Below are positions 2,702-60,177 of a stretch of DNA of 64,000 nt, piece after piece. Origin of the DNA: Phorcus lineatus (lineage: Eukaryota; Mollusca; Gastropoda; Trochida; Trochidae); the NCBI GenBank assembly GCA_921293015.1, contig OV121081.1, positions 55,143,877 through 55,207,876 on the forward strand, given 5' to 3'. Positions within the stretch are counted from its first letter, which is position 1, and the number at the start of each line of letters is the position of its first letter. The notes below the pieces were generated by a model. The model had not been told where the DNA came from and did not search any database. It worked only from the letters and a program-made list of their open reading frames with translations. The position numbers and the translations under genes were made by a program.

Positions 2702-3905
2702 GGCAGTGTGAAGTTGGTTACTTATTCCTTATTCGATATTCGACTTTTCTATTTACTTATTCGAAAAAGACTTCTGAGAGTATCAAGGAATGTTTGCACC
2801 ACCTTGTAGGTATTCTCAAATAAAAGATCATTCAATTATCTATCCAATGGGGTATGCAACGTTATAATACATAGGGTCATTCATACCGTAAAGGCACAAA
2901 AAGCGTTAGTATATAACAAAATTGGTGAACAACAACTTCTGAGAGTACCAAGAGATATTTGCACCACCTTGTTGGTATACTCAAATGAAAGATAATTCAA
3001 TTACCTATTCAATGATGTATCGTACGGCATAATACATGGACGCTGTCGTACCGTAAAGTCATAAAAAAGCGTTACCATGGACAGAAAATGATAAACAACA
3101 ACTTCTGAGAGTATTAAGGAATATTTGCACCACCTTGTGCGTAGACTTGTATTAAAGATAATTTAATGACCTACCCACAGATGTATATTACATTATAATA
3201 CATAGAGGCGTTCGTACCGTTAAGTAACAAAAAGCGGTATTGCGGTCAACATTACATTTTTTTATTCTTGAATGAACAACTTCTGAAAGTATCAAAGGAT
3301 ATTTGCACCACCTTGTATGTAGACTTAAATGAAAGATAAGCTAATTACCTACCAAATGATATACACTACATCATAATACATAGAGGCGTTTGTACCGTAT
3401 AGTAACAAAAAGCGTTACTGTATGCCCACATTTAATTTTTTAAAATTCTTGTTCGAACAATAACTTCTGAGAGTATCAAAGAATATTTGCATCACATTGT
3501 ACGTATACTTAAATGAAGGAAAATTTAATTACCTATCCAATGAGATATACTACGTTATAATACATAGAGGCGGTCATACCGTAAAGTAAAAAAAAGCCTT
3601 ACTATGTATCTCTTATTTCATTTTTTTATTCTTGTTCGAACAACAACTTCTGAGAGTATCAAAGAATATTTGCACCACATTGTACGTATACTCAAATGAA
3701 AGTTAATTCAATTACCTATCCAATGAGGTATCGTATGGTTTAATACATAGAGGCGGTCGTACGGTAAAGTAGCAAAAAGCGTTACTATATGCCCATATTT
3801 CTTTTTTGTTATTCTTGTTAACACAACTTCTGAGAGTATCAAGGAACATTTGCACCACCTTTTACGTATATTTAAAAAAAAAGATAATTTCCTTACCAGG
3901 GCATA
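2702..3905 (+). repeat. Left arm of foldback element: seven tandem units
   Basis: The marker CTTCTGAGAG recurs at about 2771, 2936, 3102, 3280, 3464, 3647 and 3827, giving spacings of 165-184 bp. Each unit also carries a GTACCGTAAAG motif and an AAAAAGCGTTA motif. Inner units are more diverged than outer ones. Confidence 0.9.
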
Positions 3906-4019
3906 CCGGGACAATATCCATATATGTCGAAAGTAATGATTAAAGATACAAGCACAGTGACATATAGAGTAGAATATTGCTTAATGAAGTACCGTGGAAA
4001 TTTTGAAGCATTGTTCTTG

Positions 4020-4715
4020 GCTCTAGGTTCTATGCGTCGATCTTCGAATTCGGTGCTTTTGATTGTCCGATATATGCATATTGTGTGCTTATAACTTGAA
4101 TTTTAATGTCAATCAATCAATCTTTATTTACGTACTTAAAATGCCACAGGCCTGTAGTACATTCATTGGTAGATCACATCATTAAATTATTACAAGTTTT
4201 TACAATATTTCTTCTATATAGCATTGCATAATAAATATACATTGCAAGATTCTGTAGTAATAGAGAATTTTAATGTGGGAATCTTAGGCGCTTCTGATTG
4301 CCCATGTATGCATAATTAATGCTCGCATCTGGTGGTCCCCTGTGTCCATCCTGGGTGCTTTTCACGATACCATATGTGCATACTTGGTGATTGTATGTGT
4401 GCATCATGGTTGCTACAAGTGGCCAATGCTTGCATCTAGGTGTCTGTAACTGGTTGTGCCATGTGTGTTTTTTGTGTGTTTGTAGCTGATGGTCACATGT
4501 CCATCTTGGGAGCTTTTGATGATTCAAAGTGTGCATATTGGGGGCTTGTATCTGTTGGCCATCCGTATGCATCTTGGGTGATTCCGGTGGCCCATGGGTG
4601 CATTTTGGTTGCTTGTATCTGGTGGTCCTTAGTGTACATCTTTGGTGCTTTTGGTGATCCTATGTGTGCATCTTGGATTTGTGCTTCTGGTGGCCCATGT
4701 TTTCATCTTGGGTTC
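4020..4715. repeat. Degenerate ~31-bp minisatellite inside the foldback element
   Basis: Imperfect units containing TGGTGGCCCATGTGTGCATC and TTGGGTGCTT repeat from about 4277 to 4715. A first unit lies at 4020-4097, so the array was split by a later LINE-tail insertion. The open frames across it come from repeat periodicity and are not credible genes. Confidence 0.75.
4110..4264 (-). mobile_element. 5'-truncated LINE 3' end inserted in the minisatellite
   Basis: A 155-bp insert is flanked by the 12-bp direct repeat GAATTTTAATGT (4098-4109 and 4265-4276). Read on the minus strand it ends AATAAAGATTGATTGATTG, a LINE-type 3' tail with tetranucleotide repeats. The minisatellite resumes on both sides. 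This is a target-primed insertion nested in the foldback element. Confidence 0.8.
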
Positions 4716-4739
4716 TTTAGGCGGTCAGTGAATTTATTT

Positions 4740-5165
4740 TCATTTTACTGACTCTGTATACTGAATTCCAATCAGTGCGTTTTTCAGCAATCTGCTGCCA
4801 CTCCAGATGCAGTGGTGCATCCAACTCTGCCACAGTTTGAACAGGGGGGTCTCTTCTACGTATACGGCGACCAAAAGTATCCCATAGATGTTCTATCGGG
4901 TTCAAGTCGGGACTGAAAGCAAGCCACGGTAGCATTGATATGGCTTCCCGAAATGTGGAATTACCACAGGTAGAAGGATGTTATCTCGATATTTCTGAGC
5001 ATTGAGTGTACCTGGAACTGTCACAAGGTCGGTTTACAACCGGAGGAGACACAACCTCATATCATAGAGCCACCACCACACTGATAGGTTGATGGGACAT
5101 GTCTTGGTGCGAAATGGGTGTTAGCTTGTCGCCAAACACGAATTCGGCCATCCTTGCCATAAATG
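4740..5165 (-). pseudogene. Tc1/mariner transposase fragment
   Basis: The minus strand encodes the end of a Tc1-type DDE transposase. SPDLNPIEHLWD, the signature around the last catalytic segment, lies at about 4870-4915 and is followed by RRIRRR. Further upstream (about 5050-5165) a different frame reads GRIRVWRQAN and CGGGSM, the family's GRxRVW and GGGSxMVWG blocks. Stops and frame changes separate the pieces, and the N-terminal DNA-binding half is missing. It lies inside the foldback element and is inactive. Confidence 0.85.
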
Positions 5166-5599
5166 AATCTCAAACTCATATGCAATCATTTGTTCGAGAT
5201 AACAGACGATATTGCTGCCACTAAAATGTTGATTTCTCCAACTACACGTTTCACTACGAGTTTCAAAAACATATGTGATTGGCTGCATCAATATATGTGG
5301 AGTTGTTTATGCCATAAAACATCTTCGAAATACTTTTCGTCAACTTGTTGAAAATATATGCTCAATTGAATTAAGTGGTGCTTAACTTATTGTTCTGAGT
5401 ATATGTCACTATATTTTAAGAAATGCACTGGGATATGATGTTCCCAGTAATTTTGTGACATAACATCTTGCCATTGTGACCCATGCATGGGCTAATTGCC
5501 AAGTACCTTTGTCCTGATGGTAGAATTTATTAAAGGGACTGTGCACATTCTGTCAAGAGGCTGCAGTTATTGGCTGTAATGGGATACATGGCTCTGCTT
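5166..5599. other. Core of foldback element, no gene recognised
   Basis: AT-rich filler between the Tc1 fragment and the right arm. A 62-codon open frame here has no recognisable domain. Confidence 0.4.
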
Positions 5600-6791
5600 C
5601 TTGTCGACACTACACGCCTCTTTGTATTATGACGTAATATACCTCATTGAACAGGTGAATGAATTATCTTTCATGTAAGTATACGTACAAGGTGTGAAAA
5701 TTCCTTGATTCTCTCAGAAGATGTTATTTATAAGTTTGGTTATATAGTACCGCTTTTTGTTACTTTTAAGTACGAACGCCTATGTACTATAACGTAGTCA
5801 ACCTCAATGGATAGGTAATTAAAATATATTTCATTTGAGTAAACGTACAAGGTGATGAAAATATCCCTTGATACTCTCAGAAGTTATTGTTTATCATGTT
5901 ATATAGTAAAGATGTTTGTGCCATTACGATACGAACAACTCAATGTATTAAAACGTGTTATCCCTCACTGGATAGGTAATTGAATCATCTTTTATTTGAG
6001 TATACGAACAAGGTGGTGTAAATATTCCTTCATCCTCTCAGAAATTGTTGTTCGAACAAGAATAACAAAAATGAAAGAAGAGATACATAGTAATGCAATT
6101 TTTGAATTTACTGTATAAACACCTCTATGTATTATGACGTAACATACCACATTGGATAGGTAATTGAGTTATCTTTCATTTTAGTATACGTAAAAGGTGG
6201 TGCAAATATTCCTTGATACTCTCAGAAGTTGTTGTTTATGATTTTGTTATATAGTAACGCTTTTTGTGCCTTTACGGTACGACAGCCTCTATGTATCATA
6301 ACGTTGTATACCCTATTGGATAGGTAATTAAATTATCTTTTACTTGAGTATACGTACAAGGTGGTGCAAATATTACTTGATAATCTCAGAAGTTGTTATA
6401 TATCATTTTCTGTCCATGGTAACGCTTTTTATGACTTTACGGTACGACAGCCTCTATGTATTATGCCGTACGATACATCATTGAATAGGTAATTGAATTA
6501 TCTTTCATTTGAGTATACCAACAAGGTGGTGCAAATATCTCTTGGTACTCTCAGAAGTTGTTGTTTACCAATTTTGTTATATACTAACGCTTTTTGTGCC
6601 TTTACGGTATGAATGACCCTATGTATTATAACGTTGCATACCCCATTGGATAGATAATTGAATGATCTTTTATTTGAGTATACCTACAAGGTGGTGCAAA
6701 CATTCCTTGATACTCTCAGAAGTCTTTTTCGAATAAGTAAATAGAAAAGTCGAATATCGAATAAGGAATAAGTAACCAACTTCACACTGCC
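5600..6791 (-). repeat. Right arm of foldback element: seven tandem units, inverted
   Basis: The complement CTCTCAGAAG recurs at about 5711, 5875, 6034, 6219, 6384, 6547 and 6713. The outermost two units match the left arm almost base for base. Inner units differ from the left arm by small indels. Confidence 0.9.
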
Positions 6792-7859: not shown

Positions 7860-8690
7860 TTGACTTTAATACAACGTGAGCGAGCAATCGTGATGATTGA
7901 AATGGGAGCCAACCACAACCATAGTGTAAGAACGCTTGGCGGTCACCGTAAAACTGCCACAAGACTAATGCAAGGTTATCGTCATTCGGGACAGACCTCA
8001 GACCGTCCGAGAGTCACAACCCACCAGGACGACCAATATCTGCGCACGTAACACTTCAGAAACCGCTTCCTGACAGTGACGTCATCGGCGTCGCATGCCC
8101 TGGGTCACCGGGTAAGCAGACGCACAGTCCCAGACGTCTAAGGTCCCATGGCATCAAGGCATAACGTTCCGGGGACAGCTGTTGACAGTCGACGAAGACT
8201 TAGATGGGCGAGGACGGTTTTACGTTGGCAGCGACGTCAGTGGCAGAAGATACTTTTCTCTTACGAAAGTCGGTTCTGTCTCTTCAAAGCAGATGGAAGA
8301 GTACGTGTCTCCCTCCCGTCGTCTGTCCCTTTCTTCGACAACAGGCACAAGGTATGATCTTTCAACAAGACAATGCCCGATCGCACACGGCTCGAGTTAC
8401 TCAGAACTTCCTTGCTAACAACATCGACCTTTTGCCGTGGCCAGCATGCTCGCCTGACATGTCACCGATCGAACATCTTTGGGACGTTTTGGATCGTCGT
8501 ATTCGTCAACGACGACGACCACCTCCAGATAACCTCCAGCAACCTGCTCAAGCCTCTCAAGAAGAATGGCAGCGCATTCCACGTAATGACGTCAGACGTT
8601 TGATTTTCAACATGCGTCAGAGGGTTAACCTGGATTTCCCTGCACCGGCATCAGTCATGACAGTGAACTTGAACTTTTTTACCCCCAGCC
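7860..8690 (+). pseudogene. Tc1-like transposase, frameshifted and internally deleted
   Basis: An N-terminal helix-turn-helix-like segment (from about 7863, LIQRERAIVMIEMGANH) is followed by frameshifted middle blocks (RRRLRWARTVLRWQRRQW, SYESRFCLFKADGRVRV, about 8190-8320). The C-terminal half reads MIFQQDNARSHTARVTQNFL, then ACSPDMSPIEHLWDVLDRRI, which carry the second Asp and the last catalytic block of a DD34E transposase (about 8355-8500). The usual 50-odd residues between GRVRV and MIFQQDNARSH are missing. I found no clear terminal inverted repeats. This is a dead copy of a different Tc1 lineage from the one at 4740-5165. Confidence 0.9.
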
Positions 8691-8749
8691 TAATATCGGA
8701 GACTGTGTCGTTCATACCGGAAGCTGATTTGTTGCATGTTTTATGAATA

Positions 8750-12080: not shown

Positions 12081-13832
12081 TCAAATTAACCTCGGTTCCC
12101 TATTTTTAAGCCACTTCCACTTCTGTCTGTCCGAGCCATCACATGACTGTTGAACAAGGACACTAGCCTCGCCGTCAACACCAATGCAGAGTCCTGTTAG
12201 AACATTCCTGATAAACTGACCATCAAATGACCAAGCCTGCATCCCTCTCTGACCATGGCATTTGAACAACCGCACCTCATGGCCATGATAACTGTCAAGG
12301 CAATGATCATGGTTTCGCACTTCATAAAAATCGGACATGTCCCATAGTTGGTTGCCTCTTAAACCATGACATCTAAAGATAGACGCTTTCTCATACTCGG
12401 ATCCCGTGTCCATACACTTGTTTGGAAAGAGGACACTCCTGATCTCTCCAGTGTAAACCCCGTCTTCACGGATGAACATTTCAGGGTATACGTTATCAAG
12501 GTACCACTTGAAGTTATTGCACTTGAGTCCCTCTCGTAGCTTCCTACGTTCAGATAGATCCCCTAAATGAACCTGTTTTCCGTTCCAGTTGGTAACGAAC
12601 ACCTTGTATTCATCAAGCCACACGTTAGCAACACGGCCAACGTTTCGAGGATAGATGTATGAAAAGTTGAGGTTACCGTGATGGTAGTTTGCATGAGACC
12701 GATAAACATGACCTACGTGAGAGCAAGGTATAATCTCCATACTTCCTCCACAGGTCCAAGCTTTGACAGACAGCTCTGAATTTTCTCCACCCCAAATCAG
12801 TAGTTCCGGATCATACTTGCCCAGCTTCACAAACCAGTCTCGGTTCACTGTGAAGAGCCCACCCGCCATTGCCGGAGACAGAATCGGATCAGTTGGAGAC
12901 TTTCGACGTTTCTGTTCACGCTCTGGTATATATATCCAGTCAAATCCAAGACTTGGAAACTTCAAAACTGCCACGTGTGCAGGCACAGTGCTCAATATTT
13001 GAAAATTCTGCATGTCGATAACCTCAATTACAGGCATTGGGATAATCTTAGGATCATGAGCAACTCTCTCCAGCAATGGTTCAAGCCAGCGTTCAAAACA
13101 CTCACAATGACTATCCAGGAAAGTGACTGTGGCTGCAGTTGCTGCATCAAAGCCGATGATCCTTGCTTTCGTCAAGCCTACCCGTTCACGGGACCGTAAG
13201 ATCTTCACCTTAGGATATCTAGATAGATACGTCTCCAATGGTTTGCCAAGATAGTCTTTAGTTGAACAATCGTCCACAAGAATTACCTCCTTCAGCAAAC
13301 TCTCAGGAGAGTTATCTAAAACGCTGTGTACAGTACGAAGCAGTGTCGTCCAGGTCTCGTTCATGAAGATGATTACGACGCTGGTTTGTGGCAGTTGTGA
13401 CACATTGTAGCTGATATGTTCACATTCTCGTATTCGGATTCGGGGAGGACGTCTGTGAAGCGATATGAGATTGCTAACGTAGTTGTGGTATCCATTTTCC
13501 TTCTTACTTTTGTCATATTTGATACGTTCCTCTTCAGGCAAACGAGAGCTGTCGATAGGAACAGGGGCTCCAAACTCACCAGGGTTTGTAAGGTTGAAAA
13601 GTCCTTTTACTAAACTAACATTCGGCATATCCGGAATGAAAACCCGAAATGAATGTGGTTCTTCTTTATCCATGTTTTCTAAACTTTCATCGGGTAGTTT
13701 TGAAGAAATAAATGCATAGAATAAAACAATGATTATCAAAAATGTGTAACCAATTCTGTAGAGCTTTCTGTTTAAGCGAAACTTTCTCAAACACCTTAAC
13801 AGCATGATGGATTTGTGTATAACGAAGCGCAT
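12081..13832 (-). CDS. Polypeptide N-acetylgalactosaminyltransferase, copy A (intronless)
   Basis: Predicted Golgi type II membrane enzyme that transfers GalNAc from UDP-GalNAc to Ser/Thr, the first step of mucin-type O-glycosylation. From the ATG at 13832 it is 583 residues. It has a short basic cytoplasmic tail, a hydrophobic anchor at about 28-44, and a stem. The GT-A catalytic domain (about 150-380) carries [13 protein letters not shown] at 240-244 (the DxH metal site), and the Gal/GalNAc-T motif [14 protein letters not shown] with WGGENSELS at 347-355. A ricin-type lectin domain (about 460-576) has QLW, QAW and QKW motifs. The shared Met at 13805 (574 residues) is the likelier start, because homology to the partner at 18326 begins there. 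There are no introns and no stops. The length is normal for the family and the protein is probably active. The orthologue class cannot be assigned. Confidence 0.95.
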
Positions 13833-14909
13833 CAGATATTGTGTTTATAAATTAAACACTCAGAGTCAATACTTCAAAAACATCTGTCGTGGGGCAAGTG
13901 CAAATCAATGAACATGCTTATCAATTTATAATAACTATGTTGAAAATCCATTTTTCAAGTCTGATTTACAACAAGTGTTTTAAATAATCGGTTTGCTTTG
14001 CAGTGCTCTTCTCATGACGTGTCTCATGCCAGTCGTAAATTTAGATTCGGCTTTGGAATGAAACGATTACTCAATACAAAATAGGAAACACAAAAGGTCC
14101 CTGATTTATAGCATTCATATGTTGAGACCATATTCCTAAGCTGACCAGGACATGTCGTATTTGTATAATGTTGTAACAACTAACGCTGGTAATAATCGGA
14201 TGCTTTGTGGTACTGGGTCGTTTTGGGTGTACCGATTTCCCTATGCCAGTATTGAATCAAGTCATTGATAGATTCAGGTTTGCACCTCACACCATGCCCA
14301 AACCGAATCTGTTTCCCAAATGAATAAATTGGGGGGAAATCTTATTTTTTCCGACGGTAAACAATATTAGAAACTGATTTCTGCCTCCCCGTTAAAAATG
14401 AACCGCTGATTCATCGTTGAACCAAATTTTAACTTAGTTTCTAAGTTTAAAGCTTTCACATTAATAATACCACTGCAAGCGATTGTACAGTTTGACGTCA
14501 CCTAAGAGGGGCGTTCACTGGCTGTGTTGGTAATGCTGGATGCAGCGATCTGCGGCTTGGGCGGCTACTTTTGGACACTAACATCTAGGTCTTTTCTTGG
14601 CGAAATTATTCCGAAGGAACTGTCACAAAAGAAAAAATATTATGCTCTCACGAATAATCAAATGTCGAGCAACTTTAGACTGCGACTCTGTTGCCTTATC
14701 TTTGCAATATTTCTGTAAACAATGACTAATGACAATGACTGTCATACAAGCGTGGATTGCAGTATGTGGCAACATATTGCGAAACATTCAAATTGTTTAA
14801 AGTCAAGCACAACTGATTTTTTCAAATATTTTTATCAACAAAAGTGCACAAGTAAAAAAGATTTAGCTGCAACAGTTCAAATAAATATTTCATCGTTCAA
14901 ATATAGTGG

Positions 14910-15445
14910 TGTAACGATTCATCGATAGTATCGATGTTTGCATCGTCTACTACGCGATACGAGTGCATCGATACAAAACATGTTTAGACAATATATCAGG
15001 ATATTTATATCGCGAGGGTCCATGATACATCGATGTATCGCCTTAAAGAGACAATATATCCTGATACTGTTAACATAATTCGTTTCAAACAAATAACTAT
15101 AAAAGCTAAAAAGGTGTTTATTCTATTTCAGAGATAACAGTGATTAGAACAGAAACAGACACAGAAAATATATGGTATTTAATATTTAATTTCACAGTCT
15201 CTCCAATTTTGTGATTTCCCTTCATGTAATATCTAAGACAGGTTGGTATCTAAATATAACATTACTGTTCTATGTCCTATCTTTAGTTCTTTCATAAACT
15301 GTAGAGAATCGGGATACGTATTGTATCGCAACCACTGTATCGTGATGATAATCGTCTCGCAGGTTCCTTGGCAATAATTCCATAATATATTGTCTCGCTC
15401 ATTAAAACTAGAATCGGGATATATCATCTCGCCACTAAGGCTATG
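14910..15445. repeat. Possible hAT-like element remnant
   Basis: It begins AGTGGTGTAACGATTCATCG, a form seen at ends of hAT-related repeats, then has many CATCGAT/ATCGATG and TATCG motifs, and ends near TCTCGCCACTA. I could not find matching 8-bp target duplications, so the type is uncertain. Confidence 0.3.
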
Positions 15446-15899
15446 ATACCCAGGCTTCGAATAGTGTTTTCATCTCCTCCAATACTTACATACAAATGCT
15501 TCAGTTGCGGGGAAAACAGTTATTCTTATCATTATTTGTATAAGCTGATAATAACGGAAACGGCTCTTACGTTAATAGACAAATATACATTAGCAAACAT
15601 ACCAAACAAAAAATCGAATATACTCCCTTAACGTAGACAACAAAGATTGAATATTGTCAAAAATGGATATAGAATAAAGTAACTTAAAACTCATAATTTC
15701 GACTTTCTTTTTCTTATTGCGAGTTTATTTAACGTAAGAATTATGGTTGGTCTCATTATTACGAGTACAGTACTAGTTCTCGTGCTTAGATTTCTTTATA
15801 ACAATCAGGAGTTTTTAGCTATAAAATATCTATATCTAAATTACAAATATTAATTTAAGAAAGACGAGATTTTTCAAATAACTTACCTATCAGTAACAA

Positions 15900-16110
15900 C
15901 CTATGTATGTCTTTGTGTCTGCTGTAGGTGAGTTCTAAAATTACGTTTGAGTCATTGACGCGCGACACTGTTGGATTTTCAATCACAAATCAAGACTTTA
16001 ACCCGTTTATTGTTACTATACTAAGCATTAGGATTCTGGTCTCCTGAAACAATCACTACTTCTCGATAAAATAATACCATTTATTAAGTTTGACATATAC
16101 TATATGGGAT
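15900..16110 (+). repeat. Dispersed repeat, copy 1
   Basis: It shares a series of blocks with 61170-61400 in the same order: GTCTTTGTGTCTG, TGTTTGAGT-like, ACTATACTAA, ATCACTACTT and TTTGACATAT. The family is unknown to me. Confidence 0.55.
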
Positions 16111-16169
16111 ACAATGCTACTTCCGGTCCCAGGTCATCAGTTTCCAATGTTGTAATATGCAGTCGATAA

Positions 16170-16246
16170 AGCATCTTCCTACGCAAAGCTTAACTATTGC
16201 CAGTCTCGAACTGTCCAAGTTAACCCTTGCTGCCGAGATAAGACTT
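16170..16246 (+). repeat. Inverted repeat, left arm (pairs with 17975-18050)
   Basis: About 65-75 bp beginning CATCTTCCTACGCAAAGCTT match the reverse complement of 17975-18050 with a few differences. The right arm lies about 280 bp upstream of GalNAc-transferase copy B. Confidence 0.85.
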
Positions 16247-17974
16247 TTCTGGCTTGATACCAGCGCCCTCACTGGCGAGTTTTAAGTTCTCTCCAGTTAC
16301 CTCCCTTACTATGGCCAATCGGCGACGCCGTGTCATTTGCGATATAATCAAAAATGGCCGCGCCCATTGAAAGTGACCTGTTTGATCAGGTTACAAAGAA
16401 GTTGTCATTGCAAACCTTTCAAACAAGAAGATTCAGTTTATAAATGTATTGATGGACGGAAAAGATGTTTTTGTTGTTATTAGGACCGGTTTTGGTAAAT
16501 AAATAACATATGACTGCGCCCCTTATATTTTTCAAAGGGAAGTATGTAGGCCCATTTATCGTGGTCGTTACCATTAAATAATTGTATTTTATCATCAAAT
16601 AAGTACAGTTTACACATTGATTATTTTTTAATAGCTGAAAAATTATCCTGGAAAATATGTGAAAATCAAATTATAGGGGAGAAAATATTTTTAGACATAC
16701 AATGAATAGTATATATTGTCTATGCAATGTATATTAACAGAGGTGCCCTATTTTCAGGGCAATTATGATTTAATTGATAAAGTAATATCATTGAACGAAA
16801 CAAAGTAATATAATCATTAGAATAAATTTAATTTAATTTTAGTTGATATTAAGATTAGATAAAAGCATTTGTAAAACTACGAAACATATTCTGGTACAAT
16901 TACTACAAAAATGGACTGAACTTGTCTTAGTTTTACCGGGCACACCTTTTTAGTTGGTAAGCTTTGACACCATATCAAGAACATAACAATTGTCTATCTT
17001 TATCATGTGCACAAGTCTCATATTTTATCATCCAACTGTTCACAAACACACGTACAAGCCAAACGGGAAATATTTCACGGAGAGAATGATAATTTTATCA
17101 AAGCAAATACCAAGTACCAAAGTAATATTTTCAAAAATGAAAATGACCCAGTGAAATCAGTGAAAATGGAAGTAAATATAACAATTGTTTTACTTTTTTA
17201 ATTTTTTTATTGACGACATATTTAAATGGTACACGTCAACATACCTGGTTTTTGACTGTAAGAAGTAAAGTTAATTTTACATGTTTTTACCTAGAGCTCT
17301 TAACAATGATATGTAGTCTCTCGTAACCCGTTTTGGGTGGCATTTGTACTTTTATCTCAGTTGAATATTTAAAGCAAACATTGTAATCCATGTTGTACAA
17401 ATGGTGAGACTTTAATAAACTATATTGTATTGTATTGTATTGTATTGTAGTAAAGTTTGTTGAGAGTAACGTTTACTACCGCGATACAACGAGGTCGCAG
17501 GCTACTACATTTCAAGAGTTATGACATCGCGAGATGTTCAAATTTTATCGGTTAATTTATGTAAAATTTAATCAATGTTTTGGTTCAACGGGTATTCAAT
17601 AAAGTTTTTGCAAGCACAAAAGATAAAACAATTGTACGATGACAGGAAATAAAGTCTTGCCGGGCGTAGTGCATCGAGTCGGTGCTTCAAATCATGATCA
17701 ATTTTATCGAGCTTAATTAGTTTGCCGAAGCATGTTAAGAATAAATTCTTTGACAGGCCGCTGTCCGCTATAGGGTTGTAGAAAAATAATGACGCAAATT
17801 GACTATAGGCATAAATGAACTTGAATATATTGTTCATCGCTTTGGAGGCGGCACTTTCTCTTTACAAGTCTTTCAGTGGACGGACTGCGACATGGGCGCA
17901 GCCATATGTTTGTTCGAGTCCCCGGATGTAGCTTTTGCTAGGAGCTTTCTGACTGGACTAGCTAGAGAGCTAGC
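16247..17974. other. Right part of the GalNAc-transferase spacer
   Basis: AT-rich, with no gene recognised. It contains a LINE-type 3' tail at about 17330-17452. Confidence 0.45.
17330..17452 (+). mobile_element. LINE 3' end with (ATTGT)n tail
   Basis: A 3'-UTR-like stretch ends in TTTAATAAACTAT followed by about five ATTGT pentamers. This is how many CR1/L2-type LINEs terminate. No coding part is left. Confidence 0.5.
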
Positions 17975-18050
17975 ACAGGAAAGCCCATGTCGGCAGCAAG
18001 GATTAACTTGGACAGTCGAGACTGGCAATAGTTAAGCTTTGCGTAGGAAG
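17975..18050 (-). repeat. Inverted repeat, right arm (pairs with 16170-16246)
   Basis: Complementary partner of the arm at 16170. It may be a terminal repeat of a decayed element or part of the inverted duplication that produced the gene pair. Confidence 0.85.
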
Positions 18051-18325
18051 ATGTCGATAAAGAGAAATTCAAGAAACTGTTGAAAAATATGTCACCTATG
18101 GACCACCAAGAGTCGAAAATAACTTACCATTCAACCCAAGGAACCCATTTTACTCCCATTTCGAAGCCTCGATATCGATGCTATGACAGTAACCGAAATT
18201 TGCCTGTCCGTCCCTCACATCAGGTGGTTTGGTAATGTGAATCAGAGTCCTAAACCGCACAACCGAGACGAAAAATCACAGCTGTTCAGGAAATATTGAT
18301 TCTCTTTGACGATTGTAGTATTAAG

Positions 18326-20116
18326 ATGCATATTTTATTCAAAAGTTTATTATACTTAAAGCACATCATGATGTTAAGGTGTATGAGAAAGTTTCGCTCA
18401 AACCGAAGGCTCTTTAAAAAAAGCTGCACATTTTTAACAATCATTATTGCATTCTATGTACTGATTTCGTCAAAACTACCCGATGAAAGTTTAGAAAACA
18501 TGGATAAAGAAGAACCACATTCATTTCGGGTTTTCATTCCGGATATGCCGAATGTTAGTTTAGTAAAAGGACTTTTCAACCTTACAAACCCTGGTGATTT
18601 TGGAGCCCCTGTACCTATCGACAGCTCTCGTTTGCCTGAAGAGGAACGTATCAAATATGACGAGAGTAAAAAGGAAAATGGATACCACAACTACGTTAGC
18701 AATCTCATATCGCTTCACAGACGTCCTCCCCGAATCCGAATACGAGAATGTGAACACATCAGCTACAATGTGTCACAACTGCCACAAACCAGCGTCGTAA
18801 TCATCTTCATGAACGAGACCTGGACGACACTGCTTCGTACTGTACACAGCGTTTTAGATAACTCTCCTGAGAGTTTGCTGAAGGAGGTAATTCTTGTGGA
18901 CGATTGTTCAACTAAAGACTATCTTGGCAAACCATTGGAGACGTATCTATCTAGATATCCTAAGGTGAAGATCTTACGGTCCCGTGAACGGGTAGGCTTG
19001 ATGAAAGCAAGGATCATCGGCTTTGATGCAGCAACTGCAGCCACAGTCACCTTCATGGACAGTCACTGTGAGTGTTTTGAACGCTGGCTTGAACCTTTGC
19101 TGGAGAGAGTTGCTCATGATCCTAAGATTATCCCAATGCCTGTAATTGAGGTTATCGACATGCAGAATTTTCAAATATTGAGCACTTTACCTGCACACGT
19201 AGCAGTTTTGAAGTTTCCAAGTCTTGGATTTGACTGGATATATATACCAGAGCGTGAACAGAAACGTCGAAAGTCTCCAACTGATCCGATTCTGTCTCCG
19301 GCAATGGCGGGTGGGCTCTTCACAGTGAACCGAGACTGGTTTGTGAAGCTGGGCAAGTATGATCCGGAACTACTGATTTGGGGTGGAGAGAATTCAGAGC
19401 TGTCTGTCAAAGCTTGGACCTGTGGAGGAAGTATGGAGATTATACCTTGCTCTCACGTAGGTCATGTTTATCGGTCTCATGCAAACTACCATCACGGTAA
19501 CTTTAACTTTTCATACATCTATCCTCGAAACGTTGGCCGTGTTGCTAACGTGTGGCTTGATGAATACAAGGTGTTCGTTACCAACTGGAACGGAGAACAG
19601 GTTCCTTTGGGGGATCTATCTGAACGTAAGAAGATACGAGTAGGACTCAAATGCAATAACTTCAAGTGGTACCTTGATAACGTATACCCTGAAATGTTCA
19701 TCAAAGGAGACGGGGTGTACACTGGAGAGATCAGAAGTGTCCTGTTTCCCACCAAGTGTATGGACACGGGGTCGGAGTTTAAAAAAACGTCAATCTTTGA
19801 ATGTCATGGTTTAAGAGGCAACCAACTATGGGATCTGTCAGATTTGAATGAAGTGCGAAACTATGACCATTGTCTTGACAGTAATCATGGTTTTAAACTG
19901 AGGCTGTTTAAGTGTCATGGTCAGAGAGGGATGCAGGCTTGGACATTTGATGGTCAGTTTATCAGGAATATTCAAACTGGACTATGCATTGGTGTTGACG
20001 GCGAGTCTAGTATCCTTGTTCAACAGTCCTGTGATGGCTCGGACAGACAGAAGTGGAAGTGGCATAAAAATAGGGAACCGAGGTTAGTTAAGAGACTCTT
20101 TGCCAACTCTGAATGA
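18326..20116 (+). CDS. Polypeptide N-acetylgalactosaminyltransferase, copy B (intronless)
   Basis: Paralogue of the minus-strand gene at 12081-13832, with the same reaction and location: Golgi GalNAc transfer to Ser/Thr. The open frame reaches back past 18326, but the first ATG codons are at 18326 (596 residues) and 18368 (582 residues). Homology to copy A starts at 18368, so I favour that start. It has an N-terminal signal anchor, an intact [19 protein letters not shown] and WGGENSELS, and a C-terminal lectin domain with QLW, QAW and QKW. The last eight residues (KRLFANSE) extend beyond copy A because the sequences part at the stop codon. By my count, only about 6 of some 375 catalytic-region residues differ from copy A, against about 27 of 168 in the lectin part and 14 of 35 in the anchor. 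A candidate AATAAA lies at about 20542. Confidence 0.93.
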   Translation: MHILFKSLLYLKHIMMLRCMRKFRSNRRLFKKSCTFLTIIIAFYVLISSKLPDESLENMDKEEPHSFRVFIPDMPNVSLVKGLFNLTNPGDFGAPVPIDSSRLPEEERIKYDESKKENGYHNYVSNLISLHRRPPRIRIRECEHISYNVSQLPQTSVVIIFMNETWTTLLRTVHSVLDNSPESLLKEVILVDDCSTKDYLGKPLETYLSRYPKVKILRSRERVGLMKARIIGFDAATAATVTFMDSHCECFERWLEPLLERVAHDPKIIPMPVIEVIDMQNFQILSTLPAHVAVLKFPSLGFDWIYIPEREQKRRKSPTDPILSPAMAGGLFTVNRDWFVKLGKYDPELLIWGGENSELSVKAWTCGGSMEIIPCSHVGHVYRSHANYHHGNFNFSYIYPRNVGRVANVWLDEYKVFVTNWNGEQVPLGDLSERKKIRVGLKCNNFKWYLDNVYPEMFIKGDGVYTGEIRSVLFPTKCMDTGSEFKKTSIFECHGLRGNQLWDLSDLNEVRNYDHCLDSNHGFKLRLFKCHGQRGMQAWTFDGQFIRNIQTGLCIGVDGESSILVQQSCDGSDRQKWKWHKNREPRLVKRLFANSE

Positions 20117-24668: not shown

Positions 24669-25251
24669 TTTCAGTTCTTGATTTAGTTGTCTCTAATGAT
24701 TATATCCCATATACAGACAGCCATTATGCAGACACTTTTAAAAACCCAGTACGCAGACACTTAAACACAAGGCCAACGATGGCAATCCCTCTGAATATAA
24801 TGGGATAGTCCACTTGTCTTGTCACATTGGAATTCAATGCTTAGAAATAAAAACTTTTTTGACAATATAATTTATTTACTTAACTTTGCATTAGTTTCAA
24901 TTTATTCCATTCAAATTTGAAATGATTTGTTATAAAAATGTAACTTGCAATATAAATATCAAATAACTCTTCTTTTACTAGTTAATAGTGATACAATGAT
25001 ATCACCAGTTGGGCTTGTGATGTCTACATAACTTTGATTTTACTAGCAAAAAGTGATCCACAAATGTCACCCGGTAGTCTAGTGATCTCTACAAAATTTG
25101 TTTTTACAAGCAAATGTCACCTGTTGGTGTAGTTGTCTCTACATAACTTTGTTTCTACAAGCAAAAAGTGATCCAATGATGTCACAAGTTTGTCTTATAA
25201 TCTATTCTCAACTTTGTTTTTATTAGCAAGAAGCTACTTTTTCTTGTTGTC

Positions 25252-25330
25252 AGGGGGCGGGATAGCGCAGTGGTTAGCGCGTTCGGCTTCGAATCAGGAG
25301 GTCCGTGGTTCGAATCCCGCCAGGGGCTCG
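25252..25330 (+). repeat. tRNA-like (SINE-head) sequence inside MULE copy 1
   Basis: It contains A box TAGCGCAGTGG (25263-25273) and B box GGTTCGAATCC (25307-25317) at normal tRNA spacing. The anticodon position would read TCG, recalling tRNA-Arg. The acceptor and T stems do not pair properly, so it is not a working tRNA gene. It is probably a SINE promoter head carried by the transposon, since both MULE copies have it. Confidence 0.75.
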
Positions 25331-25389
25331 GCAACTTTGTCTGCAGTAGAGAACTGGGGTTTTTTTTGTAGAGAACGTCTTTGTTCTTT

Positions 25390-26289
25390 GTCTTTGCCTT
25401 GCTGCCTGATCGTCGAACCGCCACCTACGTCAGACTGTTCAGACTTCTCAAGGCGAAGATGTTGGAGGAACTGAACAGTCCACTGGCCCCAAGAAGGATA
25501 CAGGCAGACTTTGAGCTTGCCCATAAGAGCCATTGAGTCAGAGTTTCCAGCTGCAGAGATAAGGGATGCTACTTCCACTTCTCTCAAGCACTCTGGATGA
25601 AGACACAAGACCTCAGTCTCGCAGTTGCCTACAAGGAGGACCCAGCTGTGAAGCAGTTCATAAGGAGAGCAGCCGCCCTTGCCTTGCTTCCCCAAGACCA
25701 AGTTCAAGACACCTGGATTGATGTCATGAACACCTCCCCGGACACTGATCGTATTGACGATTTCATGAACTACATGGTCGTCACCTGGGTGGACTACGAC
25801 GCCCGTTTTCCTCTGCCACTGTGGAACCACAACAACACCGAAGTACCAAGGACAAATAACAATTTGGAAGGTTTCCATAATCGAATGAATAGGTCCATTC
25901 CACATCGGCATCCAAACATATTCCGGTTAGTGGAAGTTATCCGGAGGATCGAGATTGCGGACAGAGCAAAACTTGCACAAGTTGCCTTTGGAGCTGCCCC
26001 ACCAAGTCGCAAGCGAGTCTATGCTGAGTTAGACAACCGCATCGTGAGGTTAAAGGAACAGCTGAGCAACGGAGAGAAAACCCCGGTTCAATTTTTGGAT
26101 GCAGTGGCCAAACTTATAAAATGTGATGAAATGAGGAACAGATCGAATTATTTAAACATCAATCAAAAAAACATGAGCAAGATCTCCTTTCTTTCTTTTC
26201 ATGAATTATACCTGGAAATGAAACACCATGGTGTTTGTGTGTGTACTAGTACTAGTGATATCAACATCAACAATAAAACATGTATCTAA
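25390..26289 (+). pseudogene. MULE transposase, C-terminal half, frameshifted
   Basis: Translation from 25390 gives VFALLPDRRTATYVRLFRLL, then RRIQADFELA with a catalytic-type Asp. Two frameshifts (near 25516 and 25560) interrupt IRAIESEFPAAEI and GCYFHFSQALW, the family's FP-x-A/GC-x-FH-x-Q block. A long frame then continues through PLPLWNHNN, RTNNNLEGFHNRMN and a helical C-terminus. The RTNN-x-EG-(F/W)-HN/NN block is typical of animal FLYWCH/MULE transposases. The N-terminal third and zinc finger are missing. It cannot make an active enzyme. Confidence 0.85.
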
Positions 26290-26457
26290 CATATATCTAT
26301 ATTTGTTATAAATAGATATATAAATTCATATAACAACCACATCGTCTTGTTTAATAAGGTGTGAGGCTGTAGCTAAGCTGTTCACTGAAGCATGAATGTT
26401 GTTGTTTAAAGCGTCTGCGTACTGGCTGTCTGCGTAATGGCTGGTTACCTCTCTAAT

Positions 26458-26809
26458 TATACCTTTTGAATTTTAACGCCTTGGACCCACCAAGCGGAAT
26501 ATATGTCCTGTCATAATGGCGTAATCTTGGCATTCGACTGCTACTTAGTTTATTGTCACGGCGTCCAGTCATTTTGAACCAATGAACTTGTAGAATATAT
26601 ATTCAACCAATAAATTAAGAGAAGGAGATTTGGCTCATGCACTTCTACGGACTATGACACTCATTTAAAAAAGTACATCGTGAATAACGGGTACCAACAT
26701 TCTTTAGGATTACATAGGATGCTTCTAACGCTTGTGCCAGGTATGTTTTCATGTCATTGATTGTTAAATTCGAAGACAGAGATATTGCAACACGGTGTGA
26801 GATGTTATA
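26458..26809. other. Spacer between the two MULE copies
   Basis: About 350 bp of ordinary sequence that belongs to neither element. It includes the outer edges of the two target duplications. No gene seen. Confidence 0.6.
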
Positions 26810-27002
26810 CTAGCTAAGGTAACCAGCCATTACGCAGACAGCCAGTACGCAGACGCTTTAAAACAACAACATTCATGCTTCAGTGAACAGTTTAGCTACA
26901 GCCTCACACCTTAGCTAACTAAATGGAATAGTCCAGATAATAAACAAGAAGATGTGGTTGTTATATGAATTTATATATCTATTTATAACAAATATAGATA
27001 TG

Positions 27003-27410
27003 TTAGATACATGTTTTATTGTTGATGTTGATATCACTAGTACTAGTACACACACAAACACCATGGTGTTTCATTCCCAGGTATAATTCATGAAAATGAA
27101 GAAAGGAGATCTTGCTCATGTTTTTTTGATTGATGTTTAAATAATTCGATCTGTTCCTCATTTCATCACATTTTATAAGTTTGGCCACTGCATCCAAAAA
27201 TTGAACCGGGGTTTTCTCTCCGTTGTTCAGCTGTTCCTTTAACCTCACGATGCGGTTGTCTATCTCAGCATAGACTCGCTTGCGACTTGGTGGGGCAGCT
27301 CCAAAGGCAACTTGTGCAAGTTTTGCTCTGTCCGCAATCTCGATCCTCCGGATAACTTCCACAAACCGTAGGTGGCGGTTCGACGATCAGGCAACAAGGC
27401 AAAGACAAAG
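27003..27410 (-). pseudogene. MULE transposase remnant with internal deletion
   Basis: The minus strand reads the ALLPDRRTATY segment, then jumps in another frame to VEVIRRIEIADRAKLAQVAF and the C-terminal helices seen in copy 1. The RTNNNLEGFHNRMN block and the catalytic Asp region are deleted. Confidence 0.85.
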
Positions 27411-27453
27411 AACAAAGACGTGCAGAACAGTTCTCTACTGCATACAAAGTTGC

Positions 27454-27532
27454 CGATCCCCTGGCGGGATTCGAACCACGGACCTCCTGATCCGAAGCCG
27501 AACGCGCTAACCACTGCGCTATCCCGCCCCCT
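27454..27532 (-). repeat. tRNA-like (SINE-head) sequence inside MULE copy 2
   Basis: It has the same A and B boxes as in copy 1, on the minus strand (B box 27467-27477, A box 27511-27521), with one or two base differences. Confidence 0.75.
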
Positions 27533-27862
27533 GACAACAAGAAAAATTAGCTTCTTGCTAATAAAAACAAAGTTGAGAATAGATTATAAGACAAACTTGT
27601 GACATCACTGGATCACTTTTTGCTTGTGTTTTGTATTTGAATGGAGTAAATTGAAACCAATGCAAAGTTTAGTAAATAAATTGTATTGTCAAATAAACAA
27701 TTATTTCTAAGCATTGAATTCCAATGTGACAAGAAAAGTGGACTGTCCCATTATATTCAGAGGGATTGCCATCGTTGGCCTTGTGTTTAAGTGTCTGCGT
27801 ACTGGGTTTTTAAAAGTGTCTGCATAATGGATGTCTGTGTAATGGGATATAATCCTAGCTAA

Positions 27863-38010: not shown

Positions 38011-39596
38011 TTTTTGTTTTGTTTTTATTTCACTGTTTTTGGTACAAAGTCAACATAAAGAGATCAATCGAATTGTTGAAAAATGGAATTGTAATACTAA
38101 TATTCCAAATATACAGTTATAATCATAGCGTCAACAATGTAGATAAAACGTCGACATCAACTAAACAACGTATGACAAGAAGACCAAAATGTGGCAATGT
38201 TACACTACAAGTTATCTTTGAATTGTATTTATCTAAGGTGTATGCAGATTCAATGTCATGTTTAATGTGTGCCATGTTTGGGCGTCTGTTTGCTAGTCTT
38301 GATTTAAAAATGTTGTACTTTGTGAGAATGATGATACGATTGACTACGTCATTTCTTCTCTCTCGGTATCCAAATAGTATTTTCGACTTATCAAAGTGAA
38401 GAAGGGTGCCAGTTTTAAGTTGAATCCATTTAATAACATTGCTCCAAATTTCTTTTATTATATTGCAGTCATAAAACATGTGCGTTATAGTTTCCACTTC
38501 GTTTTTACAAAAAGTACAGACATTGGTGTCAATCAATTTCATTTTTGATAACAGTTCATTTGTTGATATGCATCTGTGGATAATACTATACTGAAACCAT
38601 TGATGTTTTACATTAACAAGTGCCCTGAAAGGTATCTTATGAATATAATTCCAGTCAATATCCGATATTTGTTCGTTAAAATCGATATTCCATTTCTTCC
38701 TGTATTTGTTGTTTGCATTTTGATTTTCGGTTGTTTGTAGTGTATCATAAAATATTCTGCATCCTTTGCTTGTTTTCACTAGATCTTGTAAAAAATAAGG
38801 AATGCAGGGCATGCAGGTTTTTCTGAGTATAGTGTTATTCGTTATTTTACAATAGCGTTTTATAGTTTTATAGATCCCGGCATATTCTAAAAAGTTTGTT
38901 TTGCAGTTGTACAATTTATTAAATTGTTAATAAGTTAGTATGTTTCCTTTGTCATCTACCAAATCGTTTATTAAAGATACTCCCGCCTTTACATAGTGTG
39001 TGTAGCATATTGGCTTATTGCCTATTCTAAGGTTATCATTATGCCAGATAGGCTGTGTGAGCACATCATTTTGCTCCTTAATGCATTGTCCTTTACTACT
39101 GATGTATTGTCCCCATGCTAATAACACATCCATCCAAAAATCATTTGTTCGCTTTGTCAGTATGTTTTCTTTGATATGTTGTTCACATTTTGATAGAAAA
39201 TTCATATCATTTGTGTTGATGTTAAGGTAAAATAATTTGCTAAGTTTCGAATCTTTCTTGAATAACCTGTTAATCCATGTAATCTTTTGCGATTTGATCG
39301 TATTTTCTACGTTTGGTACCCTTAATCCTCCATCTTCAATTGATTTGCTAAGAATTTTTCGACTTACTTTATCGGGTTTATTTTGCCAAATAAATTTGAA
39401 AAACTCAGTATTTAATTGTTTCATAAAGGTTTTGTTTGGATTAGGGAGAGCTGAGAATAAATGATTTAATTTTGGTAGTATCAGACTTTTTAATACTGTA
39501 TTTCTACCTATAGGTGTAAGGGCTCTTGCTGACCATTTCTTCATTGTAAGCCGTACTTCCTTAAGTTTGTCTTTGTAGTTTCTTTCCACCTTTCTT
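38011..39596 (-). mobile_element. 5'-truncated L1/Tx1-like LINE with target duplication
   Basis: A 1586-bp insert is flanked by the 14-bp direct repeat TATCACCTTAAGTT (37997-38010, 39597-39610). On the minus strand it ends in an A-rich tail (complement of the T-rich run at 38011-38025). Truncation at 39596, an A-rich tail and a target duplication are the footprint of target-primed reverse transcription. Confidence 0.9.
38123..39589 (-). pseudogene. L1/Tx1-like LINE ORF2, C-terminal region with one nonsense codon
   Basis: A minus-strand frame opens at the truncation point and runs WSARALTPIGRNTVLKSLIL, PKLNHLFSALPNP, FFKFIWQNKPDKVSR, then GGLRVPN and, near the end, CTFCKNEVETITHMFYDC. These are the post-palm thumb and C-terminal Cys/His blocks of L1/Tx1-clade LINEs (LTPxGRxxVIK, FIWxxKPxKI, GGLxxPN, CxFCxxxxETxxHxFxxC). 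A single TAA at 38927-38929 breaks the frame; both parts are in phase. The endonuclease and RT palm are absent because of 5' truncation. Confidence 0.88.
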
Positions 39597-43600: not shown

Positions 43601-46600
43601 ATTATTCACCGTTTGTATGATAGGCCTGGTGATGCATGGTCTTCGTGGTCGATTTCTTTATTCTAGGATCATGAGAATCATTTCCATTAATTTTAGTAGG
43701 TCATTTTCCCTTTGTACAGTTGATCGTCATAATCCTTTATAGTTGAACCCAATCATTTTCATTTATAGGAGATAATCATTTGACATTTTCAGTAGATGTA
43801 AATAATTCTATAGAACTTTCTTAGACAATTTCCTTCTCAACCTTCAAAGTTCTATATCAGCTTCAGGTGGTTATTGAACGACTCGCTACTACGACAGACG
43901 AACAGGACGCTGCTGGTGGAGGGGGCCTCAGAGGGCCATGATGAAGAGTACACCTGTCTCGTCACCTCCAGGATCGGGACTCTCCGCTCAGAGATACTCA
44001 CCCTCAGACTCGCAGGTAGGAAACATCCCTTAAAACGGGTCATTGCTGACTTGACTTTGCAACTTTTCAGCGTTGCTGATTAGGGATATAAATGGAGAGT
44101 TTATTTGATACAGCATAAAGTTTTTAAGCCACGTTTATTCATATCTTTCGGATAGTTAAAGCGGACACCGAAAAGATTAGAAAATTATAAACAAGGATGG
44201 CAAACCCGTAAGATTTTACTGGCGCTTTTGTCATTAAGCTGTATTACAAGGGCTTTATATTTTCTATCTACGGTATCATGTATGTGAAGAATACTGCTTC
44301 TTGGTCTCGGTAGAAACTGAAAACCAATCACCCAGAACGGTCATCATCGTTTTCTCAACCTCTCGGTTTACATTTTCTACCAAACCCCAAGAGTCGTGTC
44401 CGTCCCATATTCGAAGACATTTCTAAAAATGGTCGACAAACATAATGGTCCGTTCAATTGTAGATAGTATATTTTATGCCAGTTTCTTGTCAATATTTCT
44501 GATGTTGACCTTTTGTCATTGCAGAGATAATATCGACACCAAGTCGCCGAACAAGAGAGAAGGACGACGTAGACCTATTGGAGTGTGATGTGCCGCAATA
44601 TTCGGTACCTCCTCCCCAGATCATTTGGTTCAGGAACAGAAAACCTCTTGGTGAAGACGCTGAAAACATGTACACTGACATCAACGGTATCAGTATCATA
44701 ATTTTCATACTTTTAACAATCTCACTACAACTCCTGTTACAACTAATAAAGATAATGATTCGCCTGACGAGAAACAGCGATACGAGATTGTATCATATCT
44801 TTGAGATAAACAGTTTTAAGATATTGAACCTTTGTTTAATGAGTAAAAATGGTACGAGACCGAATCCTAGCGTGGGAAATAACATATGATAATATAAAAA
44901 TGAAGAATTTATCATACATGTAGCTTTGAGATTAACAGTTGTACAATATTGATTCCTAGTTTGGTGAGTAATATGGCTACAAGATTGAATCCTAACCTCG
45001 AGAATAACAGTTTTATGAGATTGGACACTAGCTATGGGATTGAACAGTTTTACGAGATTGTATATGAAATATTTAAATGAAAATCCAAGGAATTCTGAAT
45101 TGCATAAGTATGAACTCTTCTGTCCTTTTATCATGCCAACAATTGAAATTTTGTACGAGACCGGACGATTGAAAAATGCGTTTTAAAGATGTTTATTTAC
45201 ACATTTTTTGTCAGTTAATCCGAAGTTTCAAGTTTTAACGTCCAAACTTAATTCAAATTATATGATATTTGTACTAAGATACACAACCAAGTGATCAAAC
45301 TTTCGGTATGCAGCTGTATATCCGCTCTGATGATGATGAAAGGATATTATTCAAGTATTTATGAATATGAAGGAAGTTCCTTATTTTGACATTTCATTGA
45401 CTGCTTACATCTGATCTTTGTTCCCGCTCAGGCTCCCTGGTATTCATGTACAAAAGCCAGGATGATAGGAATGCTAGGTACCAATGTGTGGCGACCAATT
45501 TCATCCTCAACTCCAGCGTCGAAGGTGACTCTGTGTACTTCAAGAGTCGGTCAACATATCGTAAGTCATGTCTTGAGATAGAGAGAGTGGCACAAAACTT
45601 TGGTGGCGTCTCATTAAAAATTTCACTAAAAACAAAATTTCCTAAGGAACGTTTCCTCCCGTACTTTACGATGATAAACTATATGATAATAGTTTGGATA
45701 TTGCAAATATAATGAACCAATATTTCACTAATCAAACCAAAGTCAATTATCCTGACAGGCAAATTGAAGACGTTATTCCTACCATTAACAATCCTCTATG
45801 TGATCTGTATCTTTATACAAATGAAGTTCATGATATTCTGTCTTCATTAGATACAACAAAAGCGACGGGGCCAGACGGCATTAGCAATAAGTTCTTAAGA
45901 ATGAACTCTGAACTGTTAGCGGGTCCTCTTACAGAAGTTTTTAACTTATCGCTTTCTAAAAAGATATTTCCGCAAATTTGGAAAGATGCCTCCGTTGTTC
46001 CTATTCATAAAAAGGGAAGTATTAATGATTGCACGAATTACAGACCTGTTGCACTGACAAGCTGTGTGGCCAAAGTTTTTGAAAAATGTGTATTTAAACA
46101 TGTCTATAATTTTCTCAGAGATAATAACATATTGTCTAACCTACAATCCGGTTTTACACCAGGGGACTCTACTGTCAATCAACTTACATATCTTTATGAT
46201 TTCATAGCTGAAGCAGTAGATAAAGGTAAGGAAGTAAAAGCGGTCTTTTGTGATGTTAGTAAAGCTTTCGATAGAGTTTGGCATAAGGGCATAATTTACA
46301 AACTTAAAAAAATTGGAATAAATGGAAATTTGTTAACATGGTTCGAGAGCTACCTTGAGAACAGAGAACAAAGTGTTGTTATTAATGGTTTCCGATCTGA
46401 CAACAGGCAAGTCTTCGCTGGCGTGCCACAAGGTTCCGTCTTGGGGCCGCTTTTGTTTATTTTATATATCAACGATATAGTTGAAGGCATCAATTGCAAT
46501 ATACGGCTCTTCGCGGACGATACATCCCTATACGCGATTATTGGGGATCCCGTTGAAACTTCTGCTGATATAAATGATGACTTGAAGCGAATTTCTGAAT

Positions 46601-59300: not shown

Positions 59301-60177
59301 TTGATGAGCGTGTAGCTTGTGTTGCTAAGATATTGACAAGAAGTAACCCTTATTCTGACCTCTGTGTCATTCAATGAAGCAATTAATCAAAATAGATTGC
59401 TTAGACTGAGTTGAATAGAAAATGGTATCATGAATGGATATGTCAGGGTACATGTTAGGAAAAATTATAGAGGTGAGGGGGGCTGAATTTCACTGAATAG
59501 TGAATAATTATAGTAATATGGGTATCTCCTGCTTTTTATTACTTTTTGTACTTTACATGTAGGTCTCGTTTGAATATCAATTATTTCTCCCTAATGTAGG
59601 ATACTAAGTGTAGTAATATAACACCGGGTAAACATGGTCTTATTAACTATTAAAATCGTACCATATGAGTGAGGCATAAGCGCCTTAAAAACATTAATGC
59701 ATCGATTAATTATTTGGTTGTCATATAGACACATTCCTTATATTTTAACATATGACAAACGTCAAAGTCTGAGCTTTATCCAATAGTTATTGAACAAGTT
59801 TTATGTGAATGAATATATAAATACGGGATGCTATACCTGTCCTCAAAATAACTTCAATGTAAAAACGGTAATCCTATCAAGTTAAACTCACAATGAACTG
59901 TAAATGAAACATTTCATTAATGGATTCTCTGAACTATGTTCGTCTCACCTACTAGGACAAACGAGTAACCAACGAGTACGAGCACAATTACACAGACAAC
60001 AAACCAATGACCCAAATATCCATGTAAAGTTAAATTAGCACTTGTAAATGTGGCAATTGGAATTTTAATAAAATTATCCCTTTCTTCAACGTTTACGCAA
60101 TGAATTATACATATATTCAAGTATGCGCGTATGAGTGTATAAATTTATATATGTATATATATCGCGTTATCGCATAT
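56371..60177. other. Gene-poor stretch
   Basis: No coding region recognised in 3.8 kb. A (GTCT)n patch lies at about 58107-58153. GGATTCGAACC near 56890 matches a tRNA B box, but no A box was found at the right distance. Confidence 0.5.
58107..58153. repeat. (GTCT)n microsatellite, imperfect
   Basis: A run of about eleven GTCT-type tetramers with a few substitutions. Confidence 0.85.

Follow-up and report, generated by a model that had tools for sequence, protein, structure and literature searches.

The 64,000-nucleotide stretch of the Phorcus lineatus genome analysed here (assembly GCA_921293015.1, contig OV121081.1, forward-strand positions 55,143,877 to 55,207,876; hereafter the window) carries two predicted polypeptide GalNAc-transferase genes (GALNT/PGANT, family GT27), copy A and copy B, in inverted orientation. 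Interlocus gene conversion between them has very probably homogenised about 1.1 kb covering the stem and catalytic core. At the level of sequence, conversion of the core is well supported in two ways: by the distribution of synonymous divergence along the pair and by a test against a paralogue on contig C15 that serves as the outgroup. We infer conversion as the cause and the neighbouring copy as the partner. A preliminary description of this DNA had proposed such conversion, confined to the catalytic domain, with the lectin domain and anchor left free to diverge. Both lines of evidence support its central proposal, while the lectin part of the claim needs revision.

Copies A and B are present as open reading frames (ORFs) where the preliminary description had placed them. 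They lie head to head, transcribed away from each other, with 4493 bases between the ORFs. Together they form the longest inverted repeat among those listed for the window, with 1726-nt arms that are 94% complementary and 4554 nt apart. Both proteins have the domain order of GALNT/PGANT enzymes, a GT2-fold catalytic domain (PF00535; E = 1.1e-31 and 5.2e-32 in the two copies) followed by a ricin-type lectin domain (PF00652; E = 2.1e-21 and 3.2e-21), all above the curated cut-offs. Among PDB entries, copy A matches Drosophila PGANT9 best (E = 4.7e-134, residues 83–575). Because of these domain matches and the PGANT9 match, we assign both copies as predicted single-exon polypeptide GalNAc-transferases. 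In copy A, the motifs DSH, WGGEN and SHVGH line up with PGANT9, and copy B has all three unchanged; we take DSH to be the DxH metal motif, WGGEN a loop, and SHVGH to provide a further metal-binding histidine. The FHNE of PGANT9 reads FMNE in A, B and the C15 paralogue. At the N-terminus, alignment columns 1–48 have a net charge of +9 and +10 in the two copies, with a hydrophobic run judged by eye, and may thereby form a type II anchor with a short basic tail. The ORF caller placed the starts at upstream in-frame ATGs that differ between the copies, and for this reason the ATG common to A and B is the likelier true start of each. Outside A and B, the best tblastn match within the window reached only E = 0.15. 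An AlphaFold2 model built from two rows had a mean pLDDT of 32 and was not used. A 131-codon open frame on the plus strand (12804–13199) runs antisense to the catalytic region of copy A, probably by chance. The coordinates of the genes and of the alignment segments used below are collected in Table 1.

Table 1. Predicted GALNT genes and alignment segments in the window
Feature	Positions	Strand	Remarks
GALNT copy A (predicted)	12081..13832	-	single-exon ORF, 583 aa; shared ATG at 13805-13803
GALNT copy B (predicted)	18326..20116	+	single-exon ORF, 596 aa; shared ATG at 18368-18370
Copy A putative cytoplasmic tail and anchor, diverged	13704..13814	-	columns 12-48
Copy B putative cytoplasmic tail and anchor, diverged	18359..18469	+	columns 12-48
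Copy A putative homogenised tract (core: stem and catalytic domain)	12579..13703	-	columns 49-423
Copy B putative homogenised tract (core)	18470..19594	+	columns 49-423
Copy A link, catalytic to lectin domain	12459..12578	-	columns 424-463
Copy B link	19595..19714	+	columns 424-463
Copy A synonymous divergence peak	12258..12458	-	columns 464-530
Copy B synonymous divergence peak	19715..19915	+	columns 464-530
Copy A lectin domain end	12084..12257	-	columns 531-588
Copy B lectin domain end	19916..20089	+	columns 531-588

We compared A and B over five alignment segments, termed anchor, core, link, peak and lectin end. Their residues differ at 15 of 37 positions in the anchor, at 6 of 375 in the core, and at 27 of 165 in the linker and lectin domain taken together (link 7/40, lectin end 7/58), close to the 14/35, 6/375 and 27/168 first reported. 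The contrast with the core is strong for both the anchor (p = 3.7e-13) and the linker plus lectin (p = 4.6e-10). Third positions differ in 13 of the 375 core codons and in 25 of the 165 linker and lectin codons, and the longest identical DNA runs between the copies reach 244, 188, 128 and 111 nt, bearing out the earlier remark that long catalytic stretches are identical even at third positions. An even synonymous divergence along the coding sequence, which the preliminary description held would leave selection on the protein as the simpler explanation, is not what we found. Synonymous divergence (dS, Nei–Gojobori) was only 0.050 in the core but rose to 0.436 in the anchor and to 0.314 in the linker plus lectin, the last comprising 0.161 in the link, 0.752 in the peak and 0.091 in the lectin end. 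The corresponding nonsynonymous values (dN) were 0.230 and 0.007 for the anchor and core, and 0.094, 0.099 and 0.052 for the three segments that follow.

Counts of synonymous codons, defined as synonymous-capable codons with an unchanged residue, give the same picture. Such codons differ at 9 of 354 in the core, compared with 22 of 130 in the linker plus lectin (p = 1.4e-7) and 4 of 21 in the anchor (p = 0.004). Simulation under a uniform rate reproduced the contrast between the core and the rest in 0 of 200,000 runs; with segment-rate variation at a coefficient of variation of 0.5 or 0.7, it was reproduced in 43 and 447 of 200,000 runs, respectively. An inner segment with its own synonymous rate is favoured over a uniform rate by a Bayes factor of e^8.8, and the synonymous data place the edges of the low tract at column 51 (17–77) and at a median of column 456 (95% interval 409–471). 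Codon bias is weak, with an effective number of codons (Nc) of about 56 in the core and about 61 elsewhere. A bounded tract of low divergence, flanked by high divergence and beyond what constraint would produce, is one pattern by which gene conversion is recognised, and the pair displays it. Within columns 49–423 the synonymous differences are unclustered (5550 of 10,000 permutations); over columns 49–463 there is a small cluster at 242–257, matched by 18 of 300 permutations. Replacements and synonymous changes stand at 16:6 in the side segments and 6:12 in the core (p = 0.024, uncorrected and from rounded counts), which is only a hint of a replacement excess in the two side segments.

The second line of evidence is independent of synonymous sites and makes use of relatives elsewhere in the 958-Mb assembly (74 contigs) from which the window was taken. 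The catalytic family has 58 matches in this genome. They include a full-length single-exon paralogue on contig C15 (L006), with 64% identity to each of A and B, and a paralogue on contig C29 (L004) with about 40%. A DNA search of the genome with copy A detected, besides A and B themselves, only the C15 paralogue (70%) and about 261 nt on contig C5 (L012; 73%), the latter being a decayed catalytic fragment with internal stops. The C15 paralogue and the C5 fragment suggest a small intronless GALNT subfamily. Searches of a viral sequence collection with copy A (5 pattern matches) and of a bacterial and archaeal collection with an alignment (247 pattern matches) yielded no relative, although neither collection would be expected to contain an animal gene.

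Between copy A and the C15 paralogue, 115 of 372 core residues and 64 of 165 lectin residues differ, so that the core has evolved only moderately more slowly; within the pair itself, its rate of difference is a tenth of that in the lectin domain. The ratio of A–B to A–C15 residue differences is 0.052 in the core, compared with 0.65, 0.47, 0.52 and 0.29 in the anchor, link, peak and lectin end (p = 8e-7, 8e-4, 1e-5 and 0.005 against the core, respectively). Calibrated on the linker and lectin together, about 49 core differences would be expected where 6 are seen (p = 1.5e-6), and the expectation ranges from 34 to 76 according to the segment used as a yardstick. Because of this deficit in the core, we reject selection on the protein alone as an explanation.

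A free segment scan of the synonymous differences excludes chance as the cause of their unevenness: its score was reached by 0 of 300 permutations. What the scan picks as the best single segment is the high block at columns 464–530, in which 17 of 52 codons differ compared with 18 of 453 elsewhere, rather than the low core. Within columns 424–588 this peak was matched by 59 of 2000 permutations. It covers the alpha repeat and the start of the beta repeat of the lectin domain, whose limits we placed by eye on what we take to be the CLD and QxW motifs. The dN/dS ratio is 0.13 in the peak and 0.14 in the core, which does not support the view that the lectin domain is free to diverge here; the peak is about as constrained as the core and, on this reading, differs through its greater age. 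The core is lower even when the peak is left out (9/354 vs 9/99, p = 0.007), and the contrast was then matched by 41 of 200,000 simulations under a uniform rate and by 1230 at a variation of 0.5. A PGANT9-like charge switch in the alpha repeat was tested by net charge and not found (-1 in both copies); the beta repeat has a net charge of 0 in one copy and +2 in the other. At columns 486 and 492 the signs of the charges are swapped, with E and R in copy A and K and E in copy B (E486K, R492E), and these might form an exchanged salt bridge.

The region of homology between the copies is nearly coextensive with the coding sequence. Identity drops from 19/20 to 5/20 at copy A's stop codon, where the preliminary description had noted that similarity ends, and at the 5′ end it starts at alignment column 12, nine bases upstream of the shared ATG. 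BLAST of the flanks found no collinear similarity between A and B, likewise confirming the earlier account. A 68-base inverted repeat lies in the spacer between the genes (16172–16239 and 17987–18053, 96% identical). Apart from this repeat, the flank search yielded a 72-base match that runs in the wrong orientation (E = 1e-9), and otherwise only short hits with E values no better than 0.001. Scanning the spacer for bacterial promoters, an approach unsuited to an animal gene, predicted 23 sites, where shuffled sequence averaged 20.2. Shared flanks of 150–600 nt simulated at a divergence of 0.3 were detected in 38–40 of 40 cases, at 0.45 in 15–34 of 40, and at 0.7 in 0–1 of 40. Since flanks would be detectable at 0.3 and almost never at 0.7, the loss of flank homology agrees with the greater age of duplication suggested by the anchor and lectin peak, and not with the young age of the core.

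These properties are best explained by the following course of events. An old inverted duplication would have given rise to two head-to-head intronless GALNT genes, and divergence since then, about 0.4–0.75 per synonymous site, would have left little recognisable similarity in their flanks. At a later time, one or a few rounds of non-crossover repair between the copies would have replaced about 1.1 kb spanning stem and catalytic domain, the latest of them at a dS of no more than about 0.05. Older differences would have survived in the anchor and in the alpha/early-beta part of the lectin domain, either by chance or through selection against their exchange. Such tracts presumably could not extend past the coding sequence, because homology stops there. 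The differing anchor and lectin parts may alter location or substrate choice. We further considered, as an unlikely extension, that conversion recurs while selection repeatedly rejects exchange of the anchor and of the lectin alpha/early-beta part; the pair would then be a two-gene, PGANT9-like switch with a shared catalytic engine, two locations and two glycopeptide preferences.

Several observations weigh against conversion of the core or blur its limits. All comparisons were made within the genome of one species. Part of the contrast rests on a single 67-codon block picked by the scan, and the dS of the peak is probably overestimated because the segment was chosen in this way. With the peak excluded and a rate variation of 0.7, 3027 of 200,000 simulations match the contrast. 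The boundary derived from residues (column 424) disagrees with that from synonymous changes (median 456). Outside columns 464–530, link and lectin codons are not significantly above the core in synonymous differences (5/78 vs 9/354, p = 0.15), unlike their residue differences, which are significantly above it in the outgroup test. The proposed confinement to the catalytic domain therefore holds only roughly: the stem is part of the tract as well, the right edge is uncertain between columns 409 and 471, and the lectin domain outside the peak is not set apart from the core at synonymous codons. Finally, synonymous sites are saturated against C15 in most segments, and for this reason the changes cannot be dated on that outgroup.

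An alternative is that the pair is recent and that one copy acquired its anchor and the alpha/beta segment of its lectin domain from a third paralogue. The dS peak is indeed an island with lower dS on either side, which the scan selects first, and a donor may have been lost or left unassembled. However, the genome search with copy A brought up, apart from the pair itself, only the C15 paralogue and the decayed C5 fragment, and a recent pair should retain alignable flanks. In each of the five segments, the distances of A and B to C15 also agree to within one residue, at 23 and 24 of 37 in the anchor, 115 and 115 of 372 in the core, 15 and 14 of 40 in the link, 25 and 25 of 67 in the peak, and 24 and 25 of 58 in the lectin end. 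With C15 as the outgroup, nucleotide changes in the peak can be assigned to either branch, 12 to one and 16 to the other, with 6 unclear. We consider a third donor quite improbable.

It is very improbable, in our view, that only the coding sequence was duplicated, as a retrocopy or through breakpoints at the gene ends, and that both ends then diverged faster. The limits of homology described above would fit such an origin, as would the fact that A, B and the C15 paralogue are each open over their full length in one exon; yet an mRNA copy would also have brought untranslated regions, and the uneven synonymous divergence would be left unexplained. Hardly credible is selection without exchange, in which stronger protein or codon constraint keeps the core alike: dN is lowest and codon bias slightly stronger there, but the moderate slowness of the core against C15 cannot account for a tenfold slowness between A and B, and synonymous divergence is uneven too.

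The window contains other repeats and traces of mobile elements. A gapped palindrome of about 3.1 kb (24710–27841) has three arm pairs that are 94–98% complementary (24710–24916/27635–27841, 25157–25356/27428–27627 and 25924–26320/26972–27368). Each of its strands is open for almost the same stretch of protein, with no Pfam match at E 0.01 for either, and the palindrome may be a mobile element. Two inverted arrays of tandem units of about 160–184 bases occupy 2702–6791, with outer arms (2702–3067/6426–6791) that are 99% complementary. A tandem repeat with a 130-base period lies at 60081–60860, its inner copies 100% identical and its outer ones 68% and 96%. Reverse-transcriptase stretches, of which two match RVT_1 and one zf-RVT, and a fragment of a DDE_3 transposase were found at 45646–47670, 52373–53290, 38123–38926 and 8204–8746, and the frame at 45646–47670 is open over 674 codons.

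Gene conversion between the A and B cores is an event of a type already known, in a gene pair that is new. Among the titles and opening lines of abstracts listed from the open-licence PMC literature, none described conversion restricted to a domain of GALNT genes. As summarised in part of PMC3924832, palindromic paralogue pairs are homogenised by conversion, and harmful crossover products contribute little. The Drosophila Hsp70 and Amylase pairs treated there are likewise linked mirror-image paralogues under ectopic gene conversion; by that account, the GALNT pair differs in that only part of its coding sequence appears homogenised. In the human red and green opsins, exon 5 forms a divergence peak under conversion (Teshima and Innan, as cited in an excerpt of PMC3924837), and the opsin and GALNT pairs share low divergence over much of their length together with a local peak. 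For the opsins, that excerpt describes functional sites and opposing selection, whereas the GALNT peak is known from sequence alone; the opsins may serve as a precedent, by analogy, for a selective reading of the peak. If selection does hold the peak, the sequence by itself would indicate which residues of the lectin domain and anchor share out the work among GALNT paralogues, and the two genes would represent a multi-domain enzyme pair with a common engine and with targeting parts kept apart. A functional counterpart may be found in the PGANT9A/PGANT9B splice switch, in which, according to the portion of PMC6115407 available, two versions of the lectin alpha region are joined to one catalytic domain and substrate preference changes. 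Both systems would combine one type of catalytic domain with two lectin alpha versions. In PGANT9, as that portion describes it, they arise by splicing of one gene and carry opposite charges, whereas in Phorcus lineatus they are encoded by two genes with the same alpha-repeat charge. PGANT9 offers a precedent, again by analogy, for a functional reading of the GALNT pair.

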